A DNA stretch of 12,155 nucleotides, taken from positions 1 through 12,155 of the forward strand of contig WFYH01000049.1 in assembly GCA_015490215.1 (NCBI GenBank). The letters run 5' to 3'. The stretch is from Aquificaceae bacterium (GTDB lineage: Bacteria > Aquificota > Aquificia > Aquificales > Aquificaceae). Positions 7,903 to 12,155 of the stretch are shown piece after piece. The position numbers and the translations under genes are program-made. Within the stretch, counting starts at the first letter, position 1. Each line of letters opens with the position of its first letter. The notes under the pieces are model-generated. The model had not been told where the DNA came from. It saw nothing but the letters and a program-made list of their open reading frames with translations, and searched no databases.

Positions 7903-9042
7903 TTAACTTCCCAGCTTCCTTATGTAAAGGTTCTTATCCTTATCCTCCTCGCTGTCCAATATGCCAACAAGTTTGAGTCCGTTACCTTCCCTTCTCAAGT
8001 ATGCCCTTCCACCCGAAAATCTCAGTTTGTAAAGGTTCGCATCGGTAGCTAAGGGTCTGATCTTCTCTTGGGGGTTTCTCAGAAGCTCCTTTATCAGATT
8101 CCTCTTCTTATCGGGCGGTAGTTTTATGAACTCTTCCACCGCCTTGTCCTCAAATCGTAGTCCCGTTAGGCTTTCAAGGATTTCACGGATTATCTTTCTT
8201 CTTCTAAGTTCCATATCTCCTCGGGACTGCATTTCAAGTAGGCTTACCTTTTTCCTCAGCTTTTCCAGCTTTTCTTTAAGTCTGCGGTTTTCATCCTTTA
8301 GGGCTTCATTTTCCTCGGACATGAGTTCAAGAAGCTCCTGAAAGTGAAGGACCTCCTTTATGAGCTTTTTCCGCTCTCTTCTCAGACTCGTCAGCTCTTT
8401 TCTGCTGGGGCTTTCCCCCTCTTCCGCTCTGATGTTTTCCAAGAGCTGAAACAACCTCCTGTTGGTTTCAAGGAGGCGCCTTTCCTTTTCCCTGTAGTCG
8501 TTCAGTTGGCTTTTCAAGGCTTCAAGTTCTTCTTCCATTTGCTTTAATCTCTCCTCCTTTATATCTTCTTCTTCTTTTTCTCTTTCAAGCTCAACTATTC
8601 TTCTTGTCAGCTCCCTGAGTTTTCTTTCAACCACCTCCCTTTGAAGGTGGACCCTTTCTATCTCTTCAAGTAGCCTCTCCCTTTCCCTTTCCGTGTTTTT
8701 GATTCGCCTTTCGGTAGGAGATTCAAAGAGTGCCACAAGGGCAAGGGTGAAAGTAACGGGTGCAAGGTCCTTTACTATTACCGCTAAATCTCCGAAGTAA
8801 AGACTCATGGCTATTATCTGCAGAAAGAACAGAAACCCAAGCCACTGGACCGCTCCCTGCCTTTCCCCGAAAAGCCAGCTTACGTATAAGGTGGAAGAAA
8901 AGGAAAGCACAAGGATGGTGTGGTAGGGGTCTTGGGGGAACAATTGAACTGGCGAAATACCCCTGTAGGTTATATACCAAAGCAGGAAGTTATAGGCGAC
9001 TATGAGAAAAAGAAGGGTAAGTGCACTCCTCATAGAATACAT
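7903..9042 (-). CDS. membrane-anchored coiled-coil protein with RelE/ParE-like C-terminal domain
   Basis: A 379-residue protein of unrecognised family. The N-terminus has four probable membrane helices (about 5-26, 41-58, 66-84 and 88-106). Residues about 110-275 are a long charged heptad-rich coiled coil, full of Glu, Lys, Arg and Leu. Residues about 292-377 look like a small globular domain: a two-helix stretch (FEDKAVEEFIKLPPDKKRNL, from 297), then YKLRFSGGRAYLRR at 338-351, LKLVGILDSEEDKDK at 356-370 and a final YIRKL. This helix-helix-strand order and the YxLRxxxxRxxxR pattern resemble RelE/ParE toxins; that is an inference. The start is uncertain: ATG at 9042 and ATG at 9033 are both in frame and neither has a Shine-Dalgarno. 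The second has TTAAAT 7 bases before it and fits a leaderless start. It is transcribed divergently from the TnpA-like gene. Confidence 0.7.
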   Translation of the reverse strand: MYSMRSALTLLFLIVAYNFLLWYITYRGISPVQLFPQDPYHTILVLSFSSTLYVSWLFGERQGAVQWLGFLFFLQIIAMSLYFGDLAVIVKDLAPVTFTLALVALFESPTERRIKNTERERERLLEEIERVHLQREVVERKLRELTRRIVELEREKEEEDIKEERLKQMEEELEALKSQLNDYREKERRLLETNRRLFQLLENIRAEEGESPSRKELTSLRRERKKLIKEVLHFQELLELMSEENEALKDENRRLKEKLEKLRKKVSLLEMQSRGDMELRRRKIIREILESLTGLRFEDKAVEEFIKLPPDKKRNLIKELLRNPQEKIRPLATDANLYKLRFSGGRAYLRREGNGLKLVGILDSEEDKDKNLYIRKLGS

Positions 9043-9099
9043 TTAACCCGAATGCACATTTCCCTTGCACATTCCTTTGGTTCTGCCTAAATTGGATAT
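9043..9099. promoter_or_regulatory. divergent promoter region with tandem 8-mer
   Basis: The 57 bases between the two divergent genes contain TGCACATT twice (9053-9060 and 9066-9073), spaced 13 bases start to start. The second copy overlaps a good plus-strand promoter: TTGCAC (9065-9070), a 17-base spacer and TAAATT (9088-9093). That promoter would begin transcription at about the A of the ATG at 9100, which lacks a ribosome site, so a leaderless message is likely. On the minus strand TTAAAT (9046-9041) sits 7 bases before the ATG at 9033. The repeat could be an operator serving both genes. Confidence 0.4.
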
Positions 9100-9489
9100 A
9101 TGGAGTATAGGCAAGATAAAGGTCAGCATGCGGTTTATTCACTTCAGTTCTACCTTGTCCTTGTAACAAAGCACAGGAGGGAGCTTATAACGGGCAAGGT
9201 AGCAGGTAGGCTCAAAGAGCTTGTCTCAGGTGTGGCTTCCTCCTTCGGTGTGGGTATAATACGCCAAATTGCCGAAAAAGACAACTTTCAGCTCCTTTTC
9301 TCAGGCAGACCGATGCTTATAATCCCCAGATTTGTCAATTCCCTGAAGACCGTAACTTCAAGGAAGATAAGGAAGGAGTTTCCCCATATAAGGGAAGGTT
9401 TTTGGGAGAGGTCTTACTTTATAGCAAGCGTCGGGGAGGTGTCCCAAGAAGATGTGAGAAGGTATGTAGAAAGATTTGCGAGGGGGTAA
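9100..9489 (+). CDS. IS200/IS605 TnpA-like protein without HUH histidines, probably domesticated
   Basis: A 129-residue homologue of Y1 single-strand transposases. The N-terminal strand pattern (HAVYSLQFYLVLVTKHRREL, 10-29), the central DxxxLL strand, the SYFIASVGEVS stretch (105-115) and the C-terminal helix with the nucleophile position Tyr122 in RRYVE follow the family order and length. However, the HUH motif, normally D-H-U-H-L-L, reads D61-N62-F63-Q64-L65-L66, so both metal-binding histidines are gone, and the usual YH before LVFVTKYR is FY. Metal-dependent cleavage should be lost. The frame is otherwise intact, no IS ends are seen, codon use looks like the neighbours, and the next gene starts 5 bases after its stop, so it is more likely a retained, repurposed nucleic-acid-binding protein than a fresh decayed insertion. 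The start has no Shine-Dalgarno but fits a leaderless transcript. Confidence 0.75.
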   Translation: MEYRQDKGQHAVYSLQFYLVLVTKHRRELITGKVAGRLKELVSGVASSFGVGIIRQIAEKDNFQLLFSGRPMLIIPRFVNSLKTVTSRKIRKEFPHIREGFWERSYFIASVGEVSQEDVRRYVERFARG

Positions 9490-9494
9490 GGAGT

Positions 9495-11477
9495 GTGCTC
9501 AAGGCACTTCCCTATCCGGCTCTGCTGGTTAGGAAGAACTCTCTGGAGATAGAAGATCTAAACGATAAGGCACAAAAGCTCCTCGGCTTTTCCGAAGATA
9601 AGGTAAGGGAGATCACCCTTGAGGATATCTTTCCGGAAAAGCTTTTGGGTTCCTTCTTTGAAACCTTGGCGGAGTGCTTAGAAGAGGGTAAGACAGCCGT
9701 AAAAAGACTCTACATCAAGGCTTTCGGTGAGAAACGCCTTGTTCCCGTAGAGGTCGGTGTGGGTGAAGCAGACAAGGAACACCTGCTTATTATCTTGAGA
9801 GACCTTACGGGTTCAACGGAAGGGGACGTTGAGTATATCAGGAACCTTTACAGGGTTTTAAGTCATATAAACGCCCTTGTGACTTCCGCGACCGATGAAA
9901 AGGCTATGCTTCAATCTGCGGTGGATATTCTCTCCTCTTGCAATCTCTTTGAATACGTTGCCATCTTCAGGTCTGAGGGAAACGAACCCGTAGCTGAAGC
10001 GGGAGAAAAGAGAGGAAAAGAAAGTAGTTTGTGCTTTCCTATAGCTCCCGGAGGTAAGAGGACGGAATACTTTCTAACCGTTTCAAGAAAAGAAGGGATA
10101 GCCTTTTCACCTTATGAGCTTGAGCTTTTATCCGAGGTTGCCCATGATCTTGCCCACGGTATAGGGCACGTGAGAATGGCGGACAGACTCAAAAGGATAT
10201 CGGTAGAAGATGAGCTTACAGGTCTTCCCAACAGGATCGCTTTTATTCGGTCGCTCAGCTTCTATATGAAAGAGGCAAAGAGGCGCAAGAGACCTTTGGG
10301 ATTGGTTATCTTTGACATAGATAACTTCGGGGAGATAAATCAGGCTTTCGGTCAAGAAACTGGGGACAGGATAATCTTGGAGACGGTTGCTCGCCTGAAG
10401 GCCTCCGTCAGGGATTCGGATGTTATAGCGAGAACCGGAGCGGATGAATTTGCTACCCTCGTAACGGAAGGAGATATACCCAAAGCTTGTGCGGAGCTTA
10501 TAGAGAGGCTACGTTCTTCCTTCAGAAATCCAATAAGGCTGAAGTCTGAAACCCTTTACGTAACCTTCTCTGCGGGTGTTTCGGTGTTTCCCACCGATGC
10601 GGAAGAGGCAGAAACCCTCTTTACCAATGCCTACAGCGCCCTACAGCAAGCAAAGAGGGCGGGAGGGAATACAACGGTCTTCTTTACAAGAAAAGTCGCA
10701 AACGCCTTTGAGGTAGCTGTAAAGATAAGGTCCGAAGCCAGAAAGGCTCTTGAAAAGGGAGAGTTCACTCTCTTTTACCAACCCAAGATAGATCTGTCCA
10801 CGAAAAAGATCGCCGGGGCGGAAGCCCTGATAAGGTGGATCAAAAAGGGCAAGGTTGTCCCTCCTATGAAGTTTATCCCTGTGGTGGAGGGGAGCGAACT
10901 TATCCACGAAGTGGGGCAGTTTGTTATTTCCGAAGCCTGCAGACAGATAGGTGTTTGGAAGGAAAAGGGTATTAACATACCTGTAGCTGTAAACGTCTCT
11001 CCGAGTCAGCTTAAATCCGCAACCTTCGTTAAGGGTATATCCGCCTTTACCGACACTTGCAAGGGAAATCTGGATCTTTTGGAGGTAGAGATAACCGAGT
11101 CCGTGATAATGGAAAATCCGCCCGAAGTTATAACATTTCTTCAAGCTCTTTCGGCGAGCGGGATAAAGACCTACATAGACGATTTTGGAACGGGGTACTC
11201 TTCCTTGGCTTATCTGAAAAAGCTGCCCGTCCATGCGATAAAGATAGACAGAGAGTTTATAAAGGATATTCCCCACAGCAGGGATAGCCTTGAGATAGTG
11301 AAGATGATCATCCGGCTTGCGGATCAACTGGGCTTTAAAACGGTTGCGGAGGGGGTTGAGAAAGAAGAGCAGGAGGAAGTCTTAAGGGATTTGGGTTGTG
11401 ATTACGCCCAAGGTTTTCTCTACTCTCCTCCTTTGCCGGCTGAAGAGTTCGAAGGTGTCGTTTGGAGATGGATCTGA
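9495..11477 (+). CDS. PAS-GAF-GGDEF-EAL c-di-GMP protein, likely phosphodiesterase
   Basis: The open frame extends up to 9402, but that part overlaps the TnpA-like gene; the PAS domain begins directly at the GTG at 9495, giving 660 residues. Order: PAS about 2-105, GAF about 117-230, GGDEF about 236-398, EAL about 405-655. No membrane segment is seen, so it is cytoplasmic. The EAL site looks complete: E443-A-L, Asn500 in NVSPS, Glu532, Asp562-Asp563 in DDFGTG, Lys583, Glu619 and Gln639; it should hydrolyse c-di-GMP to pGpG. The GGDEF signature reads G-A-D-E-F (315-319), and the usual Lys after DIDNF is Gly279, so cyclase activity is doubtful; the inhibitory-site R-x-x-D (306-309) is kept, so the domain may bind GTP or c-di-GMP and regulate EAL. 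The start lies 5 bases after the upstream stop. Its end overlaps the next gene by 10 bases, pointing to translational coupling. Confidence 0.9.
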   Translation: MLKALPYPALLVRKNSLEIEDLNDKAQKLLGFSEDKVREITLEDIFPEKLLGSFFETLAECLEEGKTAVKRLYIKAFGEKRLVPVEVGVGEADKEHLLIILRDLTGSTEGDVEYIRNLYRVLSHINALVTSATDEKAMLQSAVDILSSCNLFEYVAIFRSEGNEPVAEAGEKRGKESSLCFPIAPGGKRTEYFLTVSRKEGIAFSPYELELLSEVAHDLAHGIGHVRMADRLKRISVEDELTGLPNRIAFIRSLSFYMKEAKRRKRPLGLVIFDIDNFGEINQAFGQETGDRIILETVARLKASVRDSDVIARTGADEFATLVTEGDIPKACAELIERLRSSFRNPIRLKSETLYVTFSAGVSVFPTDAEEAETLFTNAYSALQQAKRAGGNTTVFFTRKVANAFEVAVKIRSEARKALEKGEFTLFYQPKIDLSTKKIAGAEALIRWIKKGKVVPPMKFIPVVEGSELIHEVGQFVISEACRQIGVWKEKGINIPVAVNVSPSQLKSATFVKGISAFTDTCKGNLDLLEVEITESVIMENPPEVITFLQALSASGIKTYIDDFGTGYSSLAYLKKLPVHAIKIDREFIKDIPHSRDSLEIVKMIIRLADQLGFKTVAEGVEKEEQEEVLRDLGCDYAQGFLYSPPLPAEEFEGVVWRWI

Positions 11478-12155
11478 AAGACATATACAAGGAGCTTGAA
11501 AAGGACTTTTCCTTTTTCAAGGACTACAAGGAAAAGTTCAAGGAAAATTTTAAGGAGAGCTTTTTACGTATATACCCGGACCGCGGCTCTCCTCCCCTTC
11601 TTAATACCTTGGTTTCACGGCTTTATGCGGCTCTCTTTTCCATGAGAACGGATCCGAGAAAGGAACTTTACAACCTCTGCCTCGCACTCCTGAGAAACAA
11701 GATGGACTTTCGTCCGGTTCTCATAGAGGTATGTTTGCATATGACCAAGGACTATATAGACTTCATAGTCAAAAGCCTCTCTCCCTACAAAAGGATAAAA
11801 GTGTTTTTGGATCTTGTGGACATTTACGTTCAAACTGCTGAAAAGGCAAACAGGGACTACATAAGATCCGTTGAAAAGGCGCTCAAAAGAAAAGAAGAGG
11901 AAGCGGAGGACAAAAGCAAAAAATTAGCCCTTGATTTTCTAAAAACCTTAGCGGAGCAGGGTACGGGTAAAATCGTCGTCCACACCGTTTACAAAGGGCT
12001 GTTCGTTGATACGGACTCCGAACTTGTAAGGCTTGATGGGGAAGACGTACTAATTAAAACGGGAAATATGAAGATTTATGCTCCGGGTAAGGAGATATGC
12101 TTAAGAGGCTCAGCAGTACCTTCAGCGATAGTCTGCAGGATCAAAGAAATAGACA
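11468..12155 (+). CDS. partial protein with PilZ/YcgR-N-like domain, runs off window
   Basis: An uninterrupted frame of 229 codons starts at ATG 11468, inside the last codons of the EAL gene, and runs off the right edge. AAGGTG (11452-11457) lies 10 bases upstream. Residues about 1-155 are highly charged and mostly helical: a Lys/Glu-rich start, helices about 44-72 and 82-130, and a Lys/Glu-rich linker about 134-152. Residues about 155-229 look like a beta-barrel: KIVVHTVYKGLFVDTDSELV (168-187), LIKTGNMKIYAPGKEICLRG, then VPSAIVCRIKEID. This matches the pattern of the domain that precedes PilZ in YcgR-like c-di-GMP receptors (YKGLxx, then K/Q-x-Y/A, then I-x-S-x-x-V/I). The PilZ RxxxR motif itself would lie beyond the window. 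No signal peptide or membrane segment is seen. Context beside an EAL gene supports a c-di-GMP receptor role. Confidence 0.7.
   Translation, partial: MDLKDIYKELEKDFSFFKDYKEKFKENFKESFLRIYPDRGSPPLLNTLVSRLYAALFSMRTDPRKELYNLCLALLRNKMDFRPVLIEVCLHMTKDYIDFIVKSLSPYKRIKVFLDLVDIYVQTAEKANRDYIRSVEKALKRKEEEAEDKSKKLALDFLKTLAEQGTGKIVVHTVYKGLFVDTDSELVRLDGEDVLIKTGNMKIYAPGKEICLRGSAVPSAIVCRIKEID

Follow-up and report, generated by a model that had tools for sequence, protein, structure and literature searches.

Exaptation by catalytic loss has been described for IS200/IS605 elements on the TnpB side, in the TldR proteins, whose nuclease activity has reportedly been lost. The available part of PMC13418256 describes TldRs as TnpB-derived RNA-guided transcription factors, and that of PMC8266576 indicates that TnpAREP retains the HUH-Tyr catalytic centre and cleaves REP. 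According to excerpts of PMC12594629, the tnpA locus of Salmonella IS200 is apparently not mobile and has a host role via the 5′tnpA regulatory RNA. For IS608, passages of PMC5934647 and PMC6006769 give as metal ligands D61, H64 and H66 from one chain plus Q131 from the second, and E57 and Q59 as residues that help position the Tyr helix; in the former, the TnpA active site is put together in trans. In the accessible portion of Quentin et al. 2018, 722 of 924 Y1 proteins had both motifs in a complete core, and metal-less Y1 proteins would drop out of that survey because proteins lacking the core motifs were set aside as probably non-functional. Among the open-access literature matches listed, taken at the level of titles and abstract openings, none reported a TnpA protein that is catalytically dead and plays a part in the host.

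Here we describe a tnpA-derived gene on contig WFYH01000049.1 of a heat-loving Aquificaceae bacterium (GCA_015490215.1). The stretch analysed, hereafter the window, is 12,155 bases long and is an entire contig of this draft genome. The encoded protein is like the IS200/IS605 TnpAs of IS608 and ISDra2 in its length, predicted fold, C-terminal-helix Tyr and family-model matches, but it lacks both HUH histidines and the third ligand, and its locus lacks a left end, a right end and tnpB. It shares with TnpAREP (RAYT) the retention of a Y1 transposase as a single-copy gene without IS ends; the TnpAREP catalytic centre is intact, whereas the metal site is gone here, and the REP transposase model NF047646 gave no match at E ≤ 0.001, NF033573 being the only NCBIfam model listed. 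As regards flanking REP palindromes, the analysis covered local repeats and a single IS-end hairpin pattern. TldR, as far as the source goes, resembles the window protein only conceptually, in being a transposon protein retained for regulation; it derives from TnpB and the window protein from TnpA, and there is no sign of a guide or of regulation here. Salmonella IS200 is likewise described, in the part consulted, as an apparently immobile tnpA locus with a host role, but RNA is the active part there, whereas the leader and junction of the window showed no significant RNA structure (z −0.18, 0.20 and −0.78) and no Rfam family match. Judging from sequence, we put at about even the chance that this catalytically dead, immobilised TnpA has been kept as a nucleic-acid-binding protein.

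A TnpA-type protein without its metal site

The features of the gene are as follows.

9100..9489, + strand: tnpA-derived ORF with a predicted Y1_Tnp fold without the metal site (ORF call, family models, alignment, model)
9151..9153, + strand: codon 18, TAC (Tyr), where 118 of 119 homologues have His and the five compared IS copies read CAC (alignment)
9280..9297, + strand: DNFQLL in place of DHIHIL, with codon 62 AAC (Asn) and codon 64 CAG (Gln) (sequence, alignment)
9463..9465, + strand: codon 122, TAT, the retained catalytic-type Tyr (alignment)
9475..9477, + strand: codon 126, TTT (Phe), in the place of the third metal ligand, where 96 of 119 homologues have Gln (alignment)

The ORF runs from ATG to TAA and encodes 129 aa. 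An earlier note, made from the letters of the window, had proposed a TnpA homologue with an intact frame, TnpA-like length and strand order and the C-terminal Tyr122, and all of this was confirmed by the ORF itself, with zero internal stops across 129 codons, and by family models, an AlphaFold2 model and alignment. The search that it had called for against Pfam PF01797 (Y1_Tnp) matched at 96.9 bits (cut-off 23), and the NCBIfam IS200/IS605 transposase match reached 104.7 bits (cut-off 55). This ORF is the only PF01797 match in the genome, so that tnpA is single-copy in the assembly. The structure prediction, also suggested by that note, had a mean pLDDT of 87.6 and the element order E15-23, H33-48, E52-58, E62-68, H75-93, E102-111, H116-127. 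Its top PDB match was the ISDra2 TnpA-DNA complex 2xma (E 5.7e-13, TM 0.82), and ranks 1–29 were ISDra2, IS608 and other Y1 transposase chains, with full-length rmsd mostly 5–10 angstrom. The protein is thus predicted to keep an IS608/ISDra2 TnpA-type fold, and the model and PDB matching support the proposal that a transposase fold has been retained. Two HIH relatives, P0035 and P0048, miss about ten residues near the loop at which the window TnpA is itself six residues shorter.

In the alignments, D61-N62-F63-Q64-L65-L66 falls on DHIHIL, Y122 on the catalytic Tyr and Y18 on a near-invariant strand-1 His, a residue that the model would place beside the HUH strand. The reading of the earlier note, D-N-F-Q-L-L at 61–66 in place of HUH and FY for the strand-1 YH, therefore held. 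No alternative histidine shifted into the metal site in the alignments of this protein. The metal-site loss is more complete than that note stated, with the third ligand also gone: the Y+4 position, absent from its account, is Phe126. IS608 D61, H64, H66 and Q131 correspond by alignment to E59, N62, Q64 and F126, and Y127 to Y122, so that three of the four IS608-type ligands are replaced (H62N, H64Q, Q126F) and the fourth position is acidic (D in the sister IS, E59 here). E57 and Q59 of IS608 align with R55 and I57.

Given these residues, metal-dependent nicking by the window TnpA should be impossible. Nor would a site probably be rebuilt in a mixed dimer with a normal TnpA, because the Tyr helix carries the third ligand along with it. 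Gln at the second His is known elsewhere, in P0043 (DHLQLL) and, according to part of PMC10833120, as an HUQ motif in a viral Rep, so weak metal binding by an N/Q pair is conceivable; given F126, such binding by N62 and Q64 appears unlikely.

A near twin, P0001 (129 aa, 96% identical), is encoded on a different contig (5,300 bases, ENA). It starts and ends where the window TnpA does and likewise has N, Q, F and Y at the lost or changed active-site positions. It differs at positions 3, 29, 58, 116 and 125, none of which is in the 21 most conserved columns, an observation that adds little because five changes would fairly often avoid those columns by chance.

Rarity of the double histidine loss

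Both HUH histidines were lost in none of 119 aligned homologues and one was changed in four; these homologues are the best 120 by profile search minus P0001, a list that leans towards HUH keepers because the ranking profile itself carries HUH. A survey of the phylum covered 136 genomes, 35 of which had a Y1_Tnp match. Open copies readable at the motif numbered 28, including three cut by contig ends; both histidines were present in 26, one had been lost in the G133 copy, and only the window copy was missing both. The G133 copy (G133:C1:898371-898736, L151), from another family of the phylum, reads DHVYIL, with Tyr for the second His and the catalytic Tyr and Y+4 Gln kept. A distant Y1-like match, G066:C1:292181-292402 (L169), reads NHVHLL within an unusually long 1,408-aa open frame and was counted as open with both histidines present.

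Of 11 copies that are broken in frame or fragmentary and in which the motif can be read, 7 had both histidines (G005, G026, G060:C54, G039, G088, G103:C164 and G103:C154); the first His was lost in G122 and G103:C17, and G006 and G090 were damaged at the motif. Five more copies stop short of it (G008, G045:C109, G100, G108 and G094:C30). Broken copies lose the frame and mostly keep HUH, and the window copy therefore shows the reverse order; loss at the motif also occurs in decay, since some broken copies have one His gone.

The earlier note had asked whether N/Q at the HUH positions is conserved in Aquificales, and such conservation did not emerge: among motif-readable copies from 112 genomes of the order, the N/Q form was found only in the window's own, and this single occurrence rules it out as a conserved trait of the order. 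Scans of the genome contig set and the viral contig set yielded no relative, and 2,049 plasmid records had a match, all below 60% identity. No ortholog was found beyond one 90%-identity protein cluster (five member sequences listed).

Origin from an IS200/IS605 element

In a tree of 70 rows, the window TnpA and P0001 grouped together (100/100) with P0018 as sister (99/90), and the three were nested within an 11-row clade of HIH transposases (99/97). The stem of the window TnpA and P0001 measured 0.89 changes per column, compared with 0.18 on the P0018 branch, with tips of 0.039 and 0.02, in a tree that has few columns and in which long branches meet elsewhere. Five relatives at 58–62% amino acid identity (G034, G027, G055, G026 and G005) have a unit of about 1.8 kb in common, consisting of tnpA and then a tnpB part, plus common ends. 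The second part is taken as tnpB because the copy on contig C240, 83% identical, matches PF07282. In two of the five (G026 and G005) tnpA is broken; that of G026:C1:750270-751962 (L108) is interrupted by about 1.3 kb after codon 97.

Homology of the window to this sister IS is confined to tnpA. The left end, right end and tnpB had no match at the locus, and one IS-end hairpin pattern found nothing above chance in the window. A 19-column match just 5′ of the tnpA ATG, considered as an IS leader remnant, was not significant (49 of 500 shuffles did as well for G034, and 392, 214 and 380 of 500 for the other three IS copies), and a surviving IS leader upstream of tnpA was not supported by this shuffle test. 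The gene should no longer move, because tnpB and both ends have been lost. Immobility with an intact frame, as proposed beforehand, is thus borne out, and the P0001 frame is likewise open. We regard it as firm that tnpA descends from an Aquificota-type IS200/IS605 element and that the IS ends and the metal site were lost.

Pieces of the sister IS are present in the window's genome: tnpB and the right end on C240, which stops at the tnpA/tnpB junction; a left-end remnant on C132; and, on C227 (L127, ~1695-2070), a deletion derivative whose left and right ends lie about 0.37 kb from each other and in which neither tnpA nor tnpB is matched. End-hairpin matches in this genome numbered four, against 0 in a reversed-pattern control. 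The genome also has eight PF07282 TnpB-type matches (L118-L125), seven of them above cut-off, versus the single Y1_Tnp match. A dead TnpA might bind or heterodimerise at sister IS ends in the same genome and so act as a dominant-negative brake on their movement. The pieces on C240, C227 and C132 and the excess of end hairpins would accord with this, and mixed dimers should be dead because, as stated in part of PMC5934647, the TnpA site is assembled in trans. Against it, no HIH tnpA was found in the genome, though this assembly has a completeness of 91% and C240 breaks off at the tnpA/tnpB junction, and the window TnpA has diverged by about 40% from the sister TnpAs; we consider such a role improbable.

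Genomic context

The surroundings of tnpA contain the following features.

7903..9042, − strand: divergent coiled-coil gene, 379 aa, 57 bases from tnpA (ORF list, Pfam, NCBIfam, genus survey)
9053..9073, + strand: direct repeat of TGCACATT, two copies whose starts are 13 nt apart, in the intergenic gap ahead of tnpA; a possible, weak operator (repeat search)
9480..9486, + strand: GAGGGGG inside tnpA, which might serve the EAL gene as a ribosome-binding site (read by eye)
9495..11477, + strand: GGDEF-EAL gene, 660 aa from GTG 9495 (Pfam; length versus relatives)
11462..12155, + strand: next operon gene, cut by the contig end, no family (Pfam, NCBIfam; neighbour survey)

The EAL gene begins five bases past the tnpA stop. 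The earlier note had placed a PAS-GAF-GGDEF-EAL gene at this distance; the spacing, GGDEF and EAL were recovered, but PAS and GAF were undetected by Pfam at E ≤ 0.001. Eight close relatives of the EAL protein have 656–666 aa; others, of 839–848 aa, have an additional N-terminal part, and one is shorter (548 aa). The gene appears whole because its length matches the eight close relatives, and truncation by insertion was ruled out on the same comparison (660 aa). The sequence suggests a phosphodiesterase with a degenerate cyclase domain; by eye, T-G-A-D-E-F stands for GGDEF, and EALIRW and DDFGTGYSS are kept.

Neighbours of the EAL gene were surveyed in the loci of 11 relatives with 42–50% identity, several on short contigs, and none had tnpA. 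No TnpA match at E ≤ 1e-5 was found in the 20 loci scanned, in which some stretches upstream of the EAL gene were short. Conservation of the EAL neighbour, which the earlier note had put up for testing, was not supported, and tnpA was ruled out on these loci as a regular member of the EAL operon. The gene at 11462 has no family match, and its relatives adjoin the EAL gene at 7 of the 11 loci surveyed, making it an uncharacterised partner of the c-di-GMP enzyme. The coiled-coil gene occurs in 15 of 17 genomes of the genus, the window's own included, and the fetched stretches of eight coiled-coil loci from other genomes contained no EAL relative. As far as the loci examined go, the coiled-coil/tnpA/EAL junction is specific to the window's lineage. 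At its other end (1–483) the contig starts within a DDE transposase gene, which a weak, sub-cut-off NCBIfam match suggests to be IS5-like.

The junction could in principle be an assembly or binning artefact that fused a TnpA gene to the EAL operon, the window being a whole contig of a draft genome with 5.26% contamination. This appears very improbable indeed: P0001, from another contig, begins and ends at identical residues, the EAL protein is full length and tnpA is single-copy in the assembly. The protein clusters have four members for EAL (represented by the window's own protein) and five for tnpA, sizes that are compatible with co-occurrence but do not show it.

Probable constraint on the fold

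Where the IS copies all share the same base, the window departs from it at 29 of 108 first, 18 of 113 second and 25 of 48 third codon positions. A branch codon model rejected omega = 1 for the window branch (p = 3.5e-7; dS saturated), which gives no estimate of omega, only the rejection of 1, because the branch length runs to its bound. Among columns conserved in ≥80% of homologues, 4 of 5 active-site positions were changed versus 2 of 18 others (p = 0.008), with p of 0.008–0.022 at thresholds from 60 to 95% and of 0.024 without H18 and D61, values that flatter the case because the set was chosen once the changes were known. Simulated neutral drift from G034, with 20,000 runs at each of six phase lengths and the same post hoc active-site set, produced the four losses in a stop-free frame, with no more than 1 of the 18 other columns changed, in 2 of 120,000 runs. 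Constraint on a fold relieved of catalysis accounts for this pattern better than unconstrained drift does. From the pattern we infer that catalysis was given up at a time when the fold remained under constraint, which says nothing firm on constraint today.

An ordinary relic stands close behind the nucleic-acid-binding protein and is a serious contender, somewhat short of even: an immobilised tnpA whose catalytic site has gone and whose stop is not yet met would encode a functionless protein, its translation at most feeding ribosomes to the EAL start via a site inside tnpA (translational coupling). The possible ribosome-binding site at 9480-9486 and the EAL start five bases past the stop agree with this, as do the narrow distribution of the double-loss form and the two broken copies with one His lost (G122, G103:C17); Quentin et al. 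2018, in the part available, class Y1 proteins without the core motifs as non-functional. A terminal neutral phase is also cheap, costing only 1.5 lnL at 0.2 substitutions per codon and 2.4 at 0.3, with P(no stop) of 0.44 and 0.29, respectively, from the window sequence or 0.34 and 0.20 from that of G034. Four active-site losses with almost all other conserved positions kept are, on the other hand, rare under neutral drift, and the stem, about five times the sister branch, is too long for easy survival of a neutral frame. Other decaying copies broke the frame, yet both histidines remain in 7 of 11.

Discussion

The origin of tnpA, the loss of its ends and ligands, the frame intact in two distinct sequences and the predicted fold are established. 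To explain them we favour retention as a nucleic-acid-binding protein. An Aquificota-type IS200/IS605 element (tnpA, tnpB and hairpin ends, about 1.8 kb) would have come to lie beside a c-di-GMP phosphodiesterase operon and shed tnpB and both of its ends. The metal ligands and the strand-1 His would have been replaced while the frame and fold stayed, the fold presumably remaining under constraint after ligand loss. The dimeric TnpA fold may thereby have been co-opted as a catalytically dead binder of single-strand or hairpin nucleic acid, encoded at the head of the EAL operon.

Control of the EAL operon by TnpA is possible in view of the short gap to the divergent gene, the TGCACATT repeat and the putative internal ribosome-binding site; that its target is the operon's own leader is speculative. 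We remain doubtful of the fuller proposal that a metal-less TnpA heads a c-di-GMP phosphodiesterase operon as a DNA- or RNA-hairpin-binding regulator, the counterpart of TldR on the TnpA side. Against domestication, the double-loss form is limited to one 90%-identity cluster (five members listed), and the phylum and EAL-locus surveys did not find a conserved gene at a conserved locus across lineages.

The domesticated TnpA of the literature, TnpAREP, keeps cleavage as far as the source goes, and the window TnpA would be a metal-less case. If this is true, the hairpin-binding fold alone would be worth keeping without the metal site, and a small protein, open to testing, would be tied to c-di-GMP signalling. 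If the gene is only a relic, it would still be a clean example of decay starting at the active site.
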